64,000 nt of DNA from Actinomycetes bacterium (GTDB lineage Bacteria > Actinomycetota > Acidimicrobiia > Acidimicrobiales > RAAP-2). The translations under genes and the position numbers were made by a program. Positions 7,147 to 53,294 of this stretch are shown piece by piece. How positions within the stretch are numbered: position 1 is the stretch's first letter; every line of letters starts with the position of its first letter. The notes beneath the pieces were generated by a model, which ran no database searches, had not been told where the DNA came from, and saw only the letters and a program-made list of their open reading frames with translations. The stretch lies in NCBI GenBank assembly GCA_021794655.1, contig JAJYQJ010000112.1:1-64000 (forward strand). The letters are read 5' to 3'.

Positions 7147-8550
7147 CTATCCGCTCGCTGCCTGCTTGCGCGCCTGCCGACGTTCTTCGCCACGACGGGT
7201 GAGGACGACGATGGTGTCGAGGTCGTAGGAGAGCGTCGACCACCCGGCCCAGATCCGGGCACCCACCTTCCCTTTGAGACGGGACCGGCCGGCCCCGTAG
7301 GACCGCTTCAGGTGGGAGATGCGCGCTTCGGCTCCGACCCGGAAGTTGGCGCGTCGCCTCCGGGTTCGCCGCGATCCGGCGTTGTCGTGGGAACCGACGA
7401 TGTGGGCCACCATGTCGGGTAGGGCGGCCTCGGTCTCGGCCCGGTGGAATCCGGCGTCAAAGGACCCTTCGACGAGCTTGATGCCGAGAGCGTCGAGCTC
7501 GGCCGCGGTCCTCGGCAGCAGCGCATTCTCGGGCGTGGATCCTGCTTCGAGCGGTGGCGGCACGATGAGGCCGCGGGCGCCCGGCTTGGTGCCGGCCGTG
7601 ACCTCGGCGTACTGGACGAGGTAGCCGAACTCATTGGGCTTGGCCAGCTTGCCCCGCCGGATAGGCCGGGCGTCGGTGTCGAACAGCGACACCAGACGGC
7701 TCTCGATCTTCTTGCCGGCAAAGCGTAGCTCTACCTGCTCGCAGACACGCCGGGCGAGGCCGATCACCTCTTCCAGCCTGGCGATGGCCCTGGCCCGCTG
7801 ACGGCGCGAGATCCCGATTCCCACCGAGCGCGAGCGACGGGCGGCGACGAGCAGCCGCTCGGCCTCCCGTGCCGAGGCCCGCACCTGGGTGGTGGCCTGC
7901 TCGGTCAGGCGCTGGACCTCGGACTTTGCTTCGCCCGAGCGGCGTCGCAGGGTCCTCGTGAGTGCCCGGAGCCGGAGCCCGACGGCCCGAGAACGGTCCC
8001 GGACCCGATGGGCGGCACCGGCCACCGGCACGGACTGTGCCACCTGGCACCCCGCCCGGGCGAGCAGCCGCACGGCATCTTTGGCGAGGCCGGTGTCCGT
8101 CGGGTACCGGATGTCGGCCTCGGTGACCGTCGAGTCCACCCGGATCGCCCGGGGACGCAGGACCTTGTCTGAGACGGCCTCTTTCACCACGGCCCGCACG
8201 AGGTCCTCTGCCACGTCGGGCCCCAAGCGACGGGTGAGCTTGCGCACCGTCGACTCGTCGGGGACGTGTGCGCCCAAGGGGATCCGGCAGAAGCGCCGCA
8301 AGTGGATGGAGTCCGACACCGCGGCCATGAGCGTCTCGTAGCCGTAGCCACCGCGGTGCTTGACCACCATCATCCGCAGGTAGGTCTCCATGGCGATGGT
8401 GGGCCGCCTCCGGCCGAGGAGATCCTGATGACCTTGTTCTTGGAGGTGGCACCAGTGCGTGCTCATGGTCGCCAGCACGGCGGGCTTGTCGAGCAGGTCG
8501 TCGAGGGCGGCGAGGTCGCCGGGTAGGACCTTCACCTCGTCGGGAAGCAC
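7147..8550 (-). CDS. Transposase, DUF772 N-terminal plus DDE domain (IS5/IS1182/ISNCY-like)
   Basis: A 467-residue transposase. The N-terminus (RRRPTIAMETYLRMMVVKHR, DSIHLRRFCRIPLG, VPDESTVRKLTRRLG) is the DUF772 DNA-binding region. The DDE catalytic core is suggested by IRVDSTVTEAD at about 137-147 and GSFDAGFHRAET at about 360, with a basic C-terminus. A long arginine-rich helical insertion (about 180-275) separates the first two acidic positions. It is the only transposase in the element and no frameshift is seen. Family-level assignment among IS5, IS1182 and ISNCY groups is uncertain. Confidence 0.85.
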   Translation of the reverse strand: MLPDEVKVLPGDLAALDDLLDKPAVLATMSTHWCHLQEQGHQDLLGRRRPTIAMETYLRMMVVKHRGGYGYETLMAAVSDSIHLRRFCRIPLGAHVPDESTVRKLTRRLGPDVAEDLVRAVVKEAVSDKVLRPRAIRVDSTVTEADIRYPTDTGLAKDAVRLLARAGCQVAQSVPVAGAAHRVRDRSRAVGLRLRALTRTLRRRSGEAKSEVQRLTEQATTQVRASAREAERLLVAARRSRSVGIGISRRQRARAIARLEEVIGLARRVCEQVELRFAGKKIESRLVSLFDTDARPIRRGKLAKPNEFGYLVQYAEVTAGTKPGARGLIVPPPLEAGSTPENALLPRTAAELDALGIKLVEGSFDAGFHRAETEAALPDMVAHIVGSHDNAGSRRTRRRRANFRVGAEARISHLKRSYGAGRSRLKGKVGARIWAGWSTLSYDLDTIVVLTRRGEERRQARKQAASG

Positions 8551-18101: not shown

Positions 18102-18191
18102 CCGCTATTCTGCCCGGAGTCGGGCGGAGCCGCGTATAGTGTCCTCTGCCGACGCGTCCCGCCGCCGACGTCCAGGCTCTCTTCGCGGGCC

Positions 18192-18245
18192 TAATTGCAT
18201 AACTGTAATTGCCTAATCGTGATTGTAATTGCCTAATTGCCTAAT
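18192..18245. repeat. Four TAATTGC repeats upstream of fabH
   Basis: TAATTGC occurs at 18192, 18206, 18226 and 18234, and the longer unit GTAATTGCCTAAT at 18205-18217 and 18225-18237, exactly 20 bp apart (two helical turns). The array ends about 27 bases before the fabH start and is strikingly AT-rich for this region. It is likely a regulator-binding array or part of the promoter. Confidence 0.6.
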
Positions 18246-21227: not shown

Positions 21228-21322
21228 CCCGAACGCGACATAGCCCGAACGCGGAGTAACCCGAAACGCGACGCAACCCGAACGCGGAGTAACCCCAAAC
21301 GCGACGCAACCCCGAGTAACCG
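21228..21322. repeat. Tandem repeat, 16-17 bp unit, about five copies
   Basis: Alternating units CCCGAACGCGGAGTAA (16) and CCCGAAACGCGACGCAA (17) follow each other directly after the CDF gene, ending in a partial copy CCCCGAGTAACC. Copies differ by one to four bases. The 21186-21882 gap contains no convincing gene; other contents are the two following entries and an inverted repeat CCTTAGC/GCTAAGG at 21582-21610. Confidence 0.75.
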
Positions 21323-21714: not shown

Positions 21715-21758
21715 GGCTGGGCTCGTTGGAGTGGCTGGGCTCGTTGGAGTGGCTGGGC
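21715..21758. repeat. 18-bp tandem repeat, 2.4 copies
   Basis: GGCTGGGCTCGTTGGAGT is present twice without mismatch (21715-21732 and 21733-21750), followed by a partial GGCTGGGC. It lies 125 bases before the GH43-like gene in noncoding sequence. Confidence 0.75.
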
Positions 21759-30464: not shown

Positions 30465-30492
30465 CTTGGCTCTTGGCTCTTGGCTCTTGGCT
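30465..30492. repeat. 7-bp tandem repeat, four perfect copies
   Basis: CTTGGCT is repeated four times without mismatch, 81 bases after the LysR stop. The 30385-30849 gap contains this, the inverted-repeat segment at 30583-30722, and two further repeat runs; no gene is convincing. Confidence 0.85.
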
Positions 30493-30582
30493 CGGCATCC
30501 GCGGGCGTGCCGGAACGTGTATATCGGTTCAAGAGGAGAGAGGAACGGTTAGAGGTTGGTAGGGCTAGGACAAGCCGGGCTC

Positions 30583-30758: not shown

Positions 30759-30847
30759 GTGCATGAGATCGTGCATCAGATCCTGCACGAAGCCGTCACG
30801 CAAACCGAGACCAGGAAAGACTAGGAAAGAATAGGAAGGACGAGGAG
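30759..30847 (+). repeat. 12-bp and 10-bp tandem repeats running into a ribosome site
   Basis: GTGCATGAGATC and GTGCATCAGATC (30759-30782) are followed by the degenerate CTGCACGAAGCC. Next, 10-bp units AGGAAAGACT, AGGAAAGAAT and AGGAAGGACG begin at 30813 and lead into the AGGAG ribosome binding site of the AhpD-like gene, whose ATG is at 30850. Confidence 0.7.
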
Positions 30848-47449: not shown

Positions 47450-47504
47450 CTTGGATAGGTTAGCTCCCGGCACGGAGCACAGATTTCGCCAGATGAATAC
47501 GCGA

Positions 47505-47540
47505 CGACCGATAAGACGACCGATAAGACGACCGATAAGG
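47505..47540. repeat. 12-bp tandem repeat, three copies
   Basis: CGACCGATAAGA is present three times (47505, 47517, 47529); the last copy ends in G, making the AAGGAG that resembles a ribosome site for adenosine kinase. It lies between the divergent pepN and adenosine kinase genes. Confidence 0.85.
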
Positions 47541-51658: not shown

Positions 51659-51742
51659 TTAACCGCGCCCGCAGTTGGGCTTCTTGCCGTGGTTTGCCTT
51701 TTTCTTGGCCCGTAGTTTTCTTTTCACGGTCTTTTTTGACAT
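51659..51742 (-). CDS. bL37-like small ribosomal protein, 27 residues
   Basis: A very short but convincing gene: ATG at 51742 and TAA at 51661-51659 encode 27 residues with 12 Lys/Arg. The middle, RAKKKANHGKKPN, closely resembles the actinobacterial large-subunit protein bL37 (KANHGKRPN in mycobacteria). It probably binds 23S rRNA. There is no Shine-Dalgarno; a TAGGCT -10 sits 9 bases before the ATG, so the transcript is likely leaderless. An unusual C-terminal CGRG extension is present. Confidence 0.82.
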   Translation of the reverse strand: MSKKTVKRKLRAKKKANHGKKPNCGRG

Positions 51743-51751
51743 TAGAGAAAT

Positions 51752-51781
51752 AGCCTACCGGAAACGGTTACCCTGGTCGAA
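51752..51781 (-). promoter_or_regulatory. Predicted promoter of the bL37-like gene
   Basis: On the minus strand TTCGAC (51776-51781) and TAGGCT (51752-51757) are spaced 18 bases, and initiation would fall within a few bases of the ATG at 51742. The phased 10-bp array starts 9 bases upstream of the -35 element. Confidence 0.5.
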
Positions 51782-51790
51782 TCCGTAACT

Positions 51791-51880
51791 GACCTCGGTT
51801 GACTTCCCATGACCTTATTTGACCTCGCTTGATCCTCCCTTGTCTTGGTTGAACTCGCTTTGTCTCAGTTGAACTCGGTG
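51791..51880. repeat. Nine-unit degenerate 10-bp phased array
   Basis: Nine consecutive 10-bp units follow the consensus GACCTCGGTT (for example GACCTCGGTT, GACCTCGCTT, GAACTCGCTT, GAACTCGGTG), with TTGA at six of the eight junctions. The 10-bp period puts all units on one face of the helix. It lies upstream of the bL37 promoter and 120 bp before the DUF192 start. Confidence 0.75.
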
Positions 51881-52000
51881 AACGTAGACTTTGCGTATGG
51901 AAGGGGCACGTAGGAACAGTTTCGTGGATTGCGGTGGGCGAAGACGCAAATTGAGCCGGCGACGCCCTTTCTTGAAGCGGGCACGAGTGGTGAAGAAGCG

Positions 52001-52345
52001 ATGCGCTCAGGCTGGCTGATAAGGGACTGCGAAGTACTGGCGTCGGCGGAGTTGGCCGACGGCTACTTGGACCGCGTACGCGGCCTGATCGGGCGTCGGG
52101 ACTTTGAGGGAGCGATGGTGCTGCCGCGTACCCGCTCGGTTCATACGGCGTTCGTGCCGTTTGTGATCGATGTCGCGTTCCTGGATCGAGAGTTCGTCGT
52201 CGTTTCAATGATTCGAATGGCGCGATGGAAGATTTCTCTGCCACGGAGGCGGGGGTGCAACGTGCTGGAAGCGCCGAGTGGTTCCTTCGAGCGGTGGCGA
52301 CTTCACGTAGGAGACCGCTTGGAGTTTCGTGATGCAACTCAGTAA
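52001..52345 (+). CDS. DUF192 family protein
   Basis: A 114-residue beta-rich protein covering the DUF192 domain: YLDRVRGLIGRRDFEGAMVL, RSVHTAFVPFVIDVAFLDRE and GSFERWRLHVGDRLEFR. Function is unknown; structures show a compact single-domain fold. The ATG at 52001 begins directly before the domain; an upstream in-frame start (51929) would add 24 residues. It overlaps rsmI by 17 bases. Confidence 0.85.
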   Translation: MRSGWLIRDCEVLASAELADGYLDRVRGLIGRRDFEGAMVLPRTRSVHTAFVPFVIDVAFLDREFVVVSMIRMARWKISLPRRRGCNVLEAPSGSFERWRLHVGDRLEFRDATQ

Positions 52346-53294
52346 CGAGGGGCCATCTGCGGCTCGAGACGAGAGCTTCAGTGAAGCGATCGTGAGAGAC
52401 GATTGCGATTGGCACGGCAAGCAGGGTTGCCTTGCGATTGTAGGTACGCCAATTGGGAACCTATCGGACCTCTCGCCCAGGGCTATCGAAGTGCTTGGAA
52501 CGTTCGATCGTATCTGTTGCGAGGATACCCGGCGGACTCGAGGGCTGCTATCGGCCTTTGGCCTGCCTGCTAGTCCACGCAGACTCGTGTCGTTGCACGC
52601 ACACAACGAACGAGGCCGGATTCCACAAGTACTGTCCTGGGTGGAGTCAGGAGAGCGCATAGCTATCGTGAGTGACGCCGGTCTCCCGGGCATCTCGGAC
52701 CCCGGCGAGCGACTTGTATCTGAGGCGTTGGACCACGGCCTACGCGTAACGGTCGTACCGGGGCCTTCGGCCGCGTTGGCGGCGCTCGTCTTGAGTGGGA
52801 TGAAGATCGACCGGTTTTGCGTGGAAGGATTCCTCCCGCGAAAAGGCCGAGCGCGTGAGATGCGACTCGAAGAGTTGGCGTCAGAGTCGAGGACGTCGGT
52901 GCTCTTTGAGTCACCGGAGCGCTTGGTCGCTACGTTGTCGGAGCTGTGTGAACTGGGAGGTGATCGCCTCGTAGCGGTGGTCAGAGAAGTGACCAAAGTC
53001 CACGAAGAAGTGTGGCGAGGGACCCTCGTAGAAGCCGTCGAAACGTACTCCAACAAGGAGGTTCGTGGGGAGATCGCAGTTGTCTTGAGTGGAGCGGACC
53101 TAGAACACGGCACCTCGCCTGAAGAGGTTCGCACGTTGATTTCAAAGTGCTTGGAGGACGGCAAGAGCCCACGCGAGGCGGCCAGCGTCGCGGTCTTGGA
53201 GTTCGGAGTTGGCCGCCACGCCGCGTACGAGTTGGCCATAAAGCTCAGGGACTCGTTCGCGAATTCGGGGTCGGGATCGAGAGAAACAAGATGA
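52329..53294 (+). CDS. rsmI: 16S rRNA (cytidine1402-2'-O)-methyltransferase
   Basis: A 321-residue tetrapyrrole-methylase-fold enzyme. CLAIVGTPIGNLSDLSPRAI, CCEDTRRTRGLLSAFG, IAIVSDAGLPGISDPGERLV and VVPGPSAALAALVLSG are family motifs. It 2'-O-methylates C1402 in the ribosomal P site. Start is GTG 52329 or the next codon ATG; the first 30 residues are not conserved. It begins the rsmI-metG-tatD-rsmA run. Confidence 0.95.
   Translation: MMQLSNEGPSAARDESFSEAIVRDDCDWHGKQGCLAIVGTPIGNLSDLSPRAIEVLGTFDRICCEDTRRTRGLLSAFGLPASPRRLVSLHAHNERGRIPQVLSWVESGERIAIVSDAGLPGISDPGERLVSEALDHGLRVTVVPGPSAALAALVLSGMKIDRFCVEGFLPRKGRAREMRLEELASESRTSVLFESPERLVATLSELCELGGDRLVAVVREVTKVHEEVWRGTLVEAVETYSNKEVRGEIAVVLSGADLEHGTSPEEVRTLISKCLEDGKSPREAASVAVLEFGVGRHAAYELAIKLRDSFANSGSGSRETR

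Follow-up and report, generated by a model that had tools for sequence, protein, structure and literature searches.

A degenerate nine-unit 10-bp repeat array between bL37 and the DUF192-rsmI operon, a candidate lineage-specific minisatellite

The stretch of DNA analyzed in this study (64 kb; referred to as the window) carries the bL37 gene on the minus strand and a DUF192-rsmI operon on the plus strand, and the divergent gap between them, which is unusually long at 258 bp, contains the repeat array described here (Table 1). The gene had been called bL37 in the first-pass annotation, and this identity holds: the ORF matches NCBIfam NF047428 with 35.1 bits (cut-off, 30), and 143 of 150 genomes of the family carry an orthologue. 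The genes that flank the array are housekeeping genes; metG and tatD, farther to the right, were identified by reading translations. A small rightward ORF (51897 to 52019), which belongs to no family, has no codon-position GC signal, and has no match in the relatives' loci, was treated as non-coding. Far from the array, a transposase-like ORF (window positions 7147 to 8550, minus strand) was recognized by eye from its translation.

Table 1. Positions of the genes, predicted promoter elements, and repeat units in and around the bL37/DUF192 gap
Feature	Position	Strand	Remarks
bL37 gene, MSKKTVKRKLRAKKKANHGKKPNCGRG	51659..51742	-	NCBIfam NF047428, PDB bL37 chains, family orthologues
Predicted bL37 -10 box, TAGGCT	51752..51757	-	Ends 9 nt ahead of ATG; leaderless layout
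Possible bL37 -35 box, TCGACC	51775..51780	-	17-nt spacer; consensus reading only, below promoter-scan threshold
Nine-unit degenerate 10-bp direct-repeat array, gapless	51789..51878	+	Plus-strand consensus TTGACCTCGG, minus-strand consensus CCGAGGTCAA
Best-preserved part of the array, a 20-bp block that spans units 6-7 and recurs as units 8-9	51839..51878	+	16/20 identical
Possible -10 box of the rightward unit, TAGACT	51885..51890	+	6 nt ahead of ATG at 51897; consensus reading only
DUF192 gene	52001..52345	+	Followed by rsmI, metG, and tatD
rsmI	52329..53294	+	After DUF192

The bL37 promoter, with the layout TCGACC, 17 nt, TAGGCT, 9 nt, and ATG, is predicted to be leaderless, and this prediction, already made in the first-pass annotation, is strongly supported by the family-wide conservation of the spacing between the -10 box and the start codon. 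The bL37 upstream sequences of 90 family members were compared, namely, that of the window (51743 to 51757) and those of 89 relatives (L002, L004-L031, L142-L161, and L223-L262); in all 90, a TAnnnT -10 box ends 6 to 10 nt upstream of the start codon, while the same placing is found at 4.4% of random positions. No promoter was called by a sigma-70 scan with its standard threshold. Among the ribosomal proteins of Mycobacterium tuberculosis that were considered in 2013, none was leaderless (PMC3898074). The array is indeed located immediately upstream of the predicted promoter, directly beyond the -35 position: its edge lies 8 bp upstream of the possible -35 box, and it spans approximately -47 to -136 from the predicted bL37 start. 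Its right edge extends almost to the possible -10 box of the rightward unit.

Units 1 to 5 of the array are, in order, CTGACCTCGG, TTGACTTCCC, ATGACCTTAT, TTGACCTCGC, and TTGATCCTCC, and units 6 to 9 are CTTGTCTTGG, TTGAACTCGC, TTTGTCTCAG, and TTGAACTCGG. The consensus is matched at 64 of the 90 positions (71% identity), and a possible tenth unit, TGAACGTAGA, is 1 bp off the register of the other nine. The self-match values of the array are high at lags 10 (0.53), 20 (0.64), and 30 (0.60), compared with 0.15 to 0.37 at nearly all of the remaining lags through 39 (0.27 at lag 11). Because of these high values, and because none of 20,000 dinucleotide-preserving shuffles reached the lag-10 self-match at periods of 5 to 15, the nine-unit array was confirmed to be real; the stretch first noted, 51791 to 51880, is the same one shifted by 2. 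With a lag-20 z of 7.6, the array ranks with the strongest periodic stretches of the window. The TTGA described at most unit junctions is exact in five of the nine units and its TGA is present in seven, whereas in units 6 and 8 the TTG is shifted by 1 bp. The placement of the units on one face of the DNA is only approximate because the exact 10.0-bp period drifts by approximately 4 bp (approximately 137 degrees) from a 10.5-bp helix across eight steps. The array DNA showed no secondary structure (z = +1.45), an RNA family search gave no credible match, and neither flanking duplications nor inverted repeats nor mobile-element ends were observed around the array.

The likeness between units 6-7 and units 8-9 is suggestive of growth by block duplication, in which the array may have been extended two units at a time. 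Units 6 and 8 have three derived letters in common, which is no more than suggestive (chance of such sharing, 0.08). Approximately 26 of the 90 array positions deviate from the consensus, and the nine units contain no indel. Neutral decay is expected to introduce a few indels as well as substitutions. That the 26 deviations include no indel is the strongest argument from the sequence that spacing is under selection, yet it is weakened because gapless arrays are the ones that get noticed. Substitutions are not significantly uneven over the unit positions (p = 0.09), as examined for a binding core.

The family sample comprised 172 genomes, among which the genus is represented by this genome alone; a comparison of RsmI with that of named close relatives gave a best identity of 54% and no useful sister species. 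The divergent order of bL37 and DUF192 is retained in many relatives, and bL37, DUF192, and rsmI are conserved in relatives that lack the array. None of the 89 relatives inspected (approximately 20 genera) carries the array upstream of bL37, and their bL37-DUF192 gaps are approximately 37 to 157 bp, compared with 258 bp here (37 to 137 bp in 30 measured relatives and up to approximately 157 bp in another set, from coordinates). Since the gaps of the relatives are shorter and none carries the array, the array DNA is an addition in this lineage.

Other intergenic tandem arrays are abundant in this genome. In a sample of 424 kb, in which intergenic DNA was delimited by crude ORF-based gene calls, 17 degenerate intergenic tandem arrays were found in 44.7 kb of intergenic DNA, and they have unrelated sequences and nearly all have other periods (range, 14 to 35 bp; e.g., 14, 18, 21, 22, 24, 33, and 35). 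The excess over relatives is modest, i.e., four relatives pooled gave 5 intergenic arrays in 33.6 kb. A second strong 10-bp array was not found in the 424-kb sample, and the sequence motif forms a single array genome-wide. Within the window, intergenic tandem arrays are located at 18189-18245, 21228-21312, 21715-21758, 30465-30493, 30808-30846, and 47503-47539, and more short intergenic arrays of many periods were seen elsewhere in the same genome (L188, L191, L192, L197, L198, L200, and L202). The degeneracy with a preserved period had been taken in the first-pass annotation as a sign of selection on spacing, and this reading is not upheld, given the absence of the array in 89 relatives, the many arrays of other periods, and the unit columns, which are not significantly uneven; the comparison among relatives that it called for found no array in the 89 genomes examined.

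Similar repeats occur elsewhere in the family. Four RGTCAA half-sites at 10-bp spacing were found at 16 places in 12 family genomes, compared with 3 for the reversed pattern, and most of these places apart from the array locus adjoin a tRNA gene (five by ARAGORN and four more by visual recognition of tRNA-like 3' ends). GGTCA(A/C) repeats with a 10-bp period lie beside tRNA genes (Cys, Gly, and Glu) or tRNA-like 3' ends in L164, L171-L174, L176, L177, L181, and L182, and the GGTCA array in L171 is directly behind a tyrosine integrase gene. These tRNA-adjacent arrays probably serve integrative elements as arm or excisionase sites; attachment-site arrays of such elements are known to have direct repeats spaced by one helical turn (PMC7498355). 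In L166 (genus G079), a purine-rich AAGTCAAGAC-like array with a period of approximately 10 bp (approximately 840 to 975) lies directly upstream of a substrate-binding-protein-like ORF (995 to 2209).

A functional reading of the array itself is weakly supported. The tRNA-adjacent arrays raise the question of whether the array is a relic of an integrative-element attachment site, with excisionase or integrase arm sites as direct repeats approximately one helical turn apart, although the search pattern itself accounts for part of their likeness in motif. This candidate was rejected as largely refuted and is barely credible, since neither a tRNA nor an integrase is nearby: the 64-kb window contains no tRNA at all, the neighbors are housekeeping genes, and the array has no flanking duplications or inverted repeats. 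Alternatively, a regulator may bind cooperatively, head to tail, to (A/G)GTCAA half-sites at 10-bp spacing and repress or activate the bL37 and DUF192-rsmI promoters. Response regulators of the OmpR/PhoB type and BldC-like proteins bind head-to-tail on their own repeats. The period near the helical turn, the directional units, the position upstream of the predicted bL37 start, and the existence of GGTCA repeats with this period in the family, even if mostly by tRNA genes, are consistent with such a protein array. We nevertheless consider it unlikely: the genome has no second such array, TTGAC and TTGA[AC]C pairs are not in excess at 10-bp spacing in the 424 kb, two-unit motif matches genome-wide (67, four of which are within the array) barely exceed those of a reversed-pattern control (52), the unit columns are not significantly unequal, and relatives conserve bL37, DUF192, and rsmI without the array. 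A more specific form, in which a lineage-specific operator of nine half-sites, the one genomic target of a cooperative putative regulator, would couple the leaderless bL37 promoter to the divergent DUF192-rsmI rRNA-methylation operon, is very doubtful. The most similar case described is the region upstream of Streptomyces lividans pstS, a degenerate actinobacterial array just upstream of a promoter, in which eight degenerate 12-nt repeats are present and deletion of the region that holds them doubles expression; a repressor was proposed, the identity of which was not found in that study (PMC2605767). That array differs in its 12-nt unit (ACYCASCCMNSV), its gene, and its partial conservation in S. 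coelicolor, whereas the array here is not conserved; in view of this precedent, the array may still have a regulatory role. The PHO boxes of Streptomyces PhoP likewise are directional tandem units near promoters with degenerate outer units, but their period is 11 nt, at which the array self-match drops to about half of that at lag 10, and bL37 and DUF192 are not known phosphate genes (PMC7866108). BldC operators, too, lie near promoters and consist of head-to-tail repeats that vary in number, but they require 9-bp AATTNNNNC units, whereas the array has a period of 10 bp and a consensus without the AATT core (PMC5859096).

The array may instead be an intrinsically curved or UP-like element that would wrap around RNA polymerase and so raise the activity of the bL37 promoter, a possibility that we regard as quite improbable. 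UP elements stimulate transcription via the C-terminal domain of the alpha subunit, and the array starts at approximately -47 from the predicted start. Curvature was calculated with two wedge models: the Bolshoy model predicts a bend of 86 degrees over 90 bp and the De Santis model one of 60 degrees, at the 99.8th and 99.5th percentile, respectively, of the window 90-mers. The curvature prediction suggested in the first-pass annotation thus gave a value for the array that is high within the window, but not one consistently beyond that of arrays with permuted columns, in which period and composition are kept: the array stands at the 96.5th percentile of these in one model and the 81st in the other, so much of the predicted curvature comes with the period, and any 10-bp repeat gains some. 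In addition, the array has no A-tracts and does not resemble A-tract curved DNA, for which a phased control bends by approximately 160 to 240 degrees; its exact 10.0-bp period drifts off the helix, and the relatives drive the same promoter without it.

We favor, as moderately probable, the reading that the array originated as an intergenic minisatellite specific to this lineage, has diverged since then, and affects the promoters incidentally at most. A 10-bp (later 20-bp) unit would have been expanded by slippage or by short tandem duplication inside the bL37/DUF192 divergent region, which lengthened the gap from the size found in the relatives, and the copies would then have gathered substitutions. 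The 10-bp register may have been kept because duplication, as proposed, adds whole units, rather than by demonstrable selection on spacing. The array, its position, its absence from the relatives, and the abundance of other intergenic arrays are observed, and from these we infer that it arose by slippage and serves no dedicated function; a slight modulation of transcription may still arise via mild curvature or extra -35-like TTGAC words. Head-to-tail copies beyond chance, presence that differs between lineages, the single occurrence of the array sequence in the genome, and identity at lags 20 and 30 above that at lag 10, together with the closeness of units 6-7 to units 8-9, as block duplications predict, all agree with a minisatellite. 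As in bacterial intergenic minisatellites and variable-number tandem repeats, the units are short, head-to-tail, and intergenic, and many other arrays are found in the same genome. On the other hand, the period is near one helical turn, the array is more degenerate than most others here, and it is placed exactly between two divergent promoters, which is suggestive. The lack of any indel (in a setting where ascertainment favors gapless arrays), the lack of any other strong array with a 10-bp period in the sampled part of the genome, and the modest excess of intergenic arrays over relatives also stand against a minisatellite.

The -10 box holds a fixed position relative to the bL37 start codon across the family, which indicates that this ribosomal-protein gene is conserved and apparently leaderless. 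If the array is an ordinary minisatellite, it is a caution that a 10-bp period by a promoter is alone no evidence of selection for helical phasing in a genome that produces numerous arrays with other periods. Were the array an operator, control of a ribosomal-protein promoter by such a long head-to-tail array would be a rarity.
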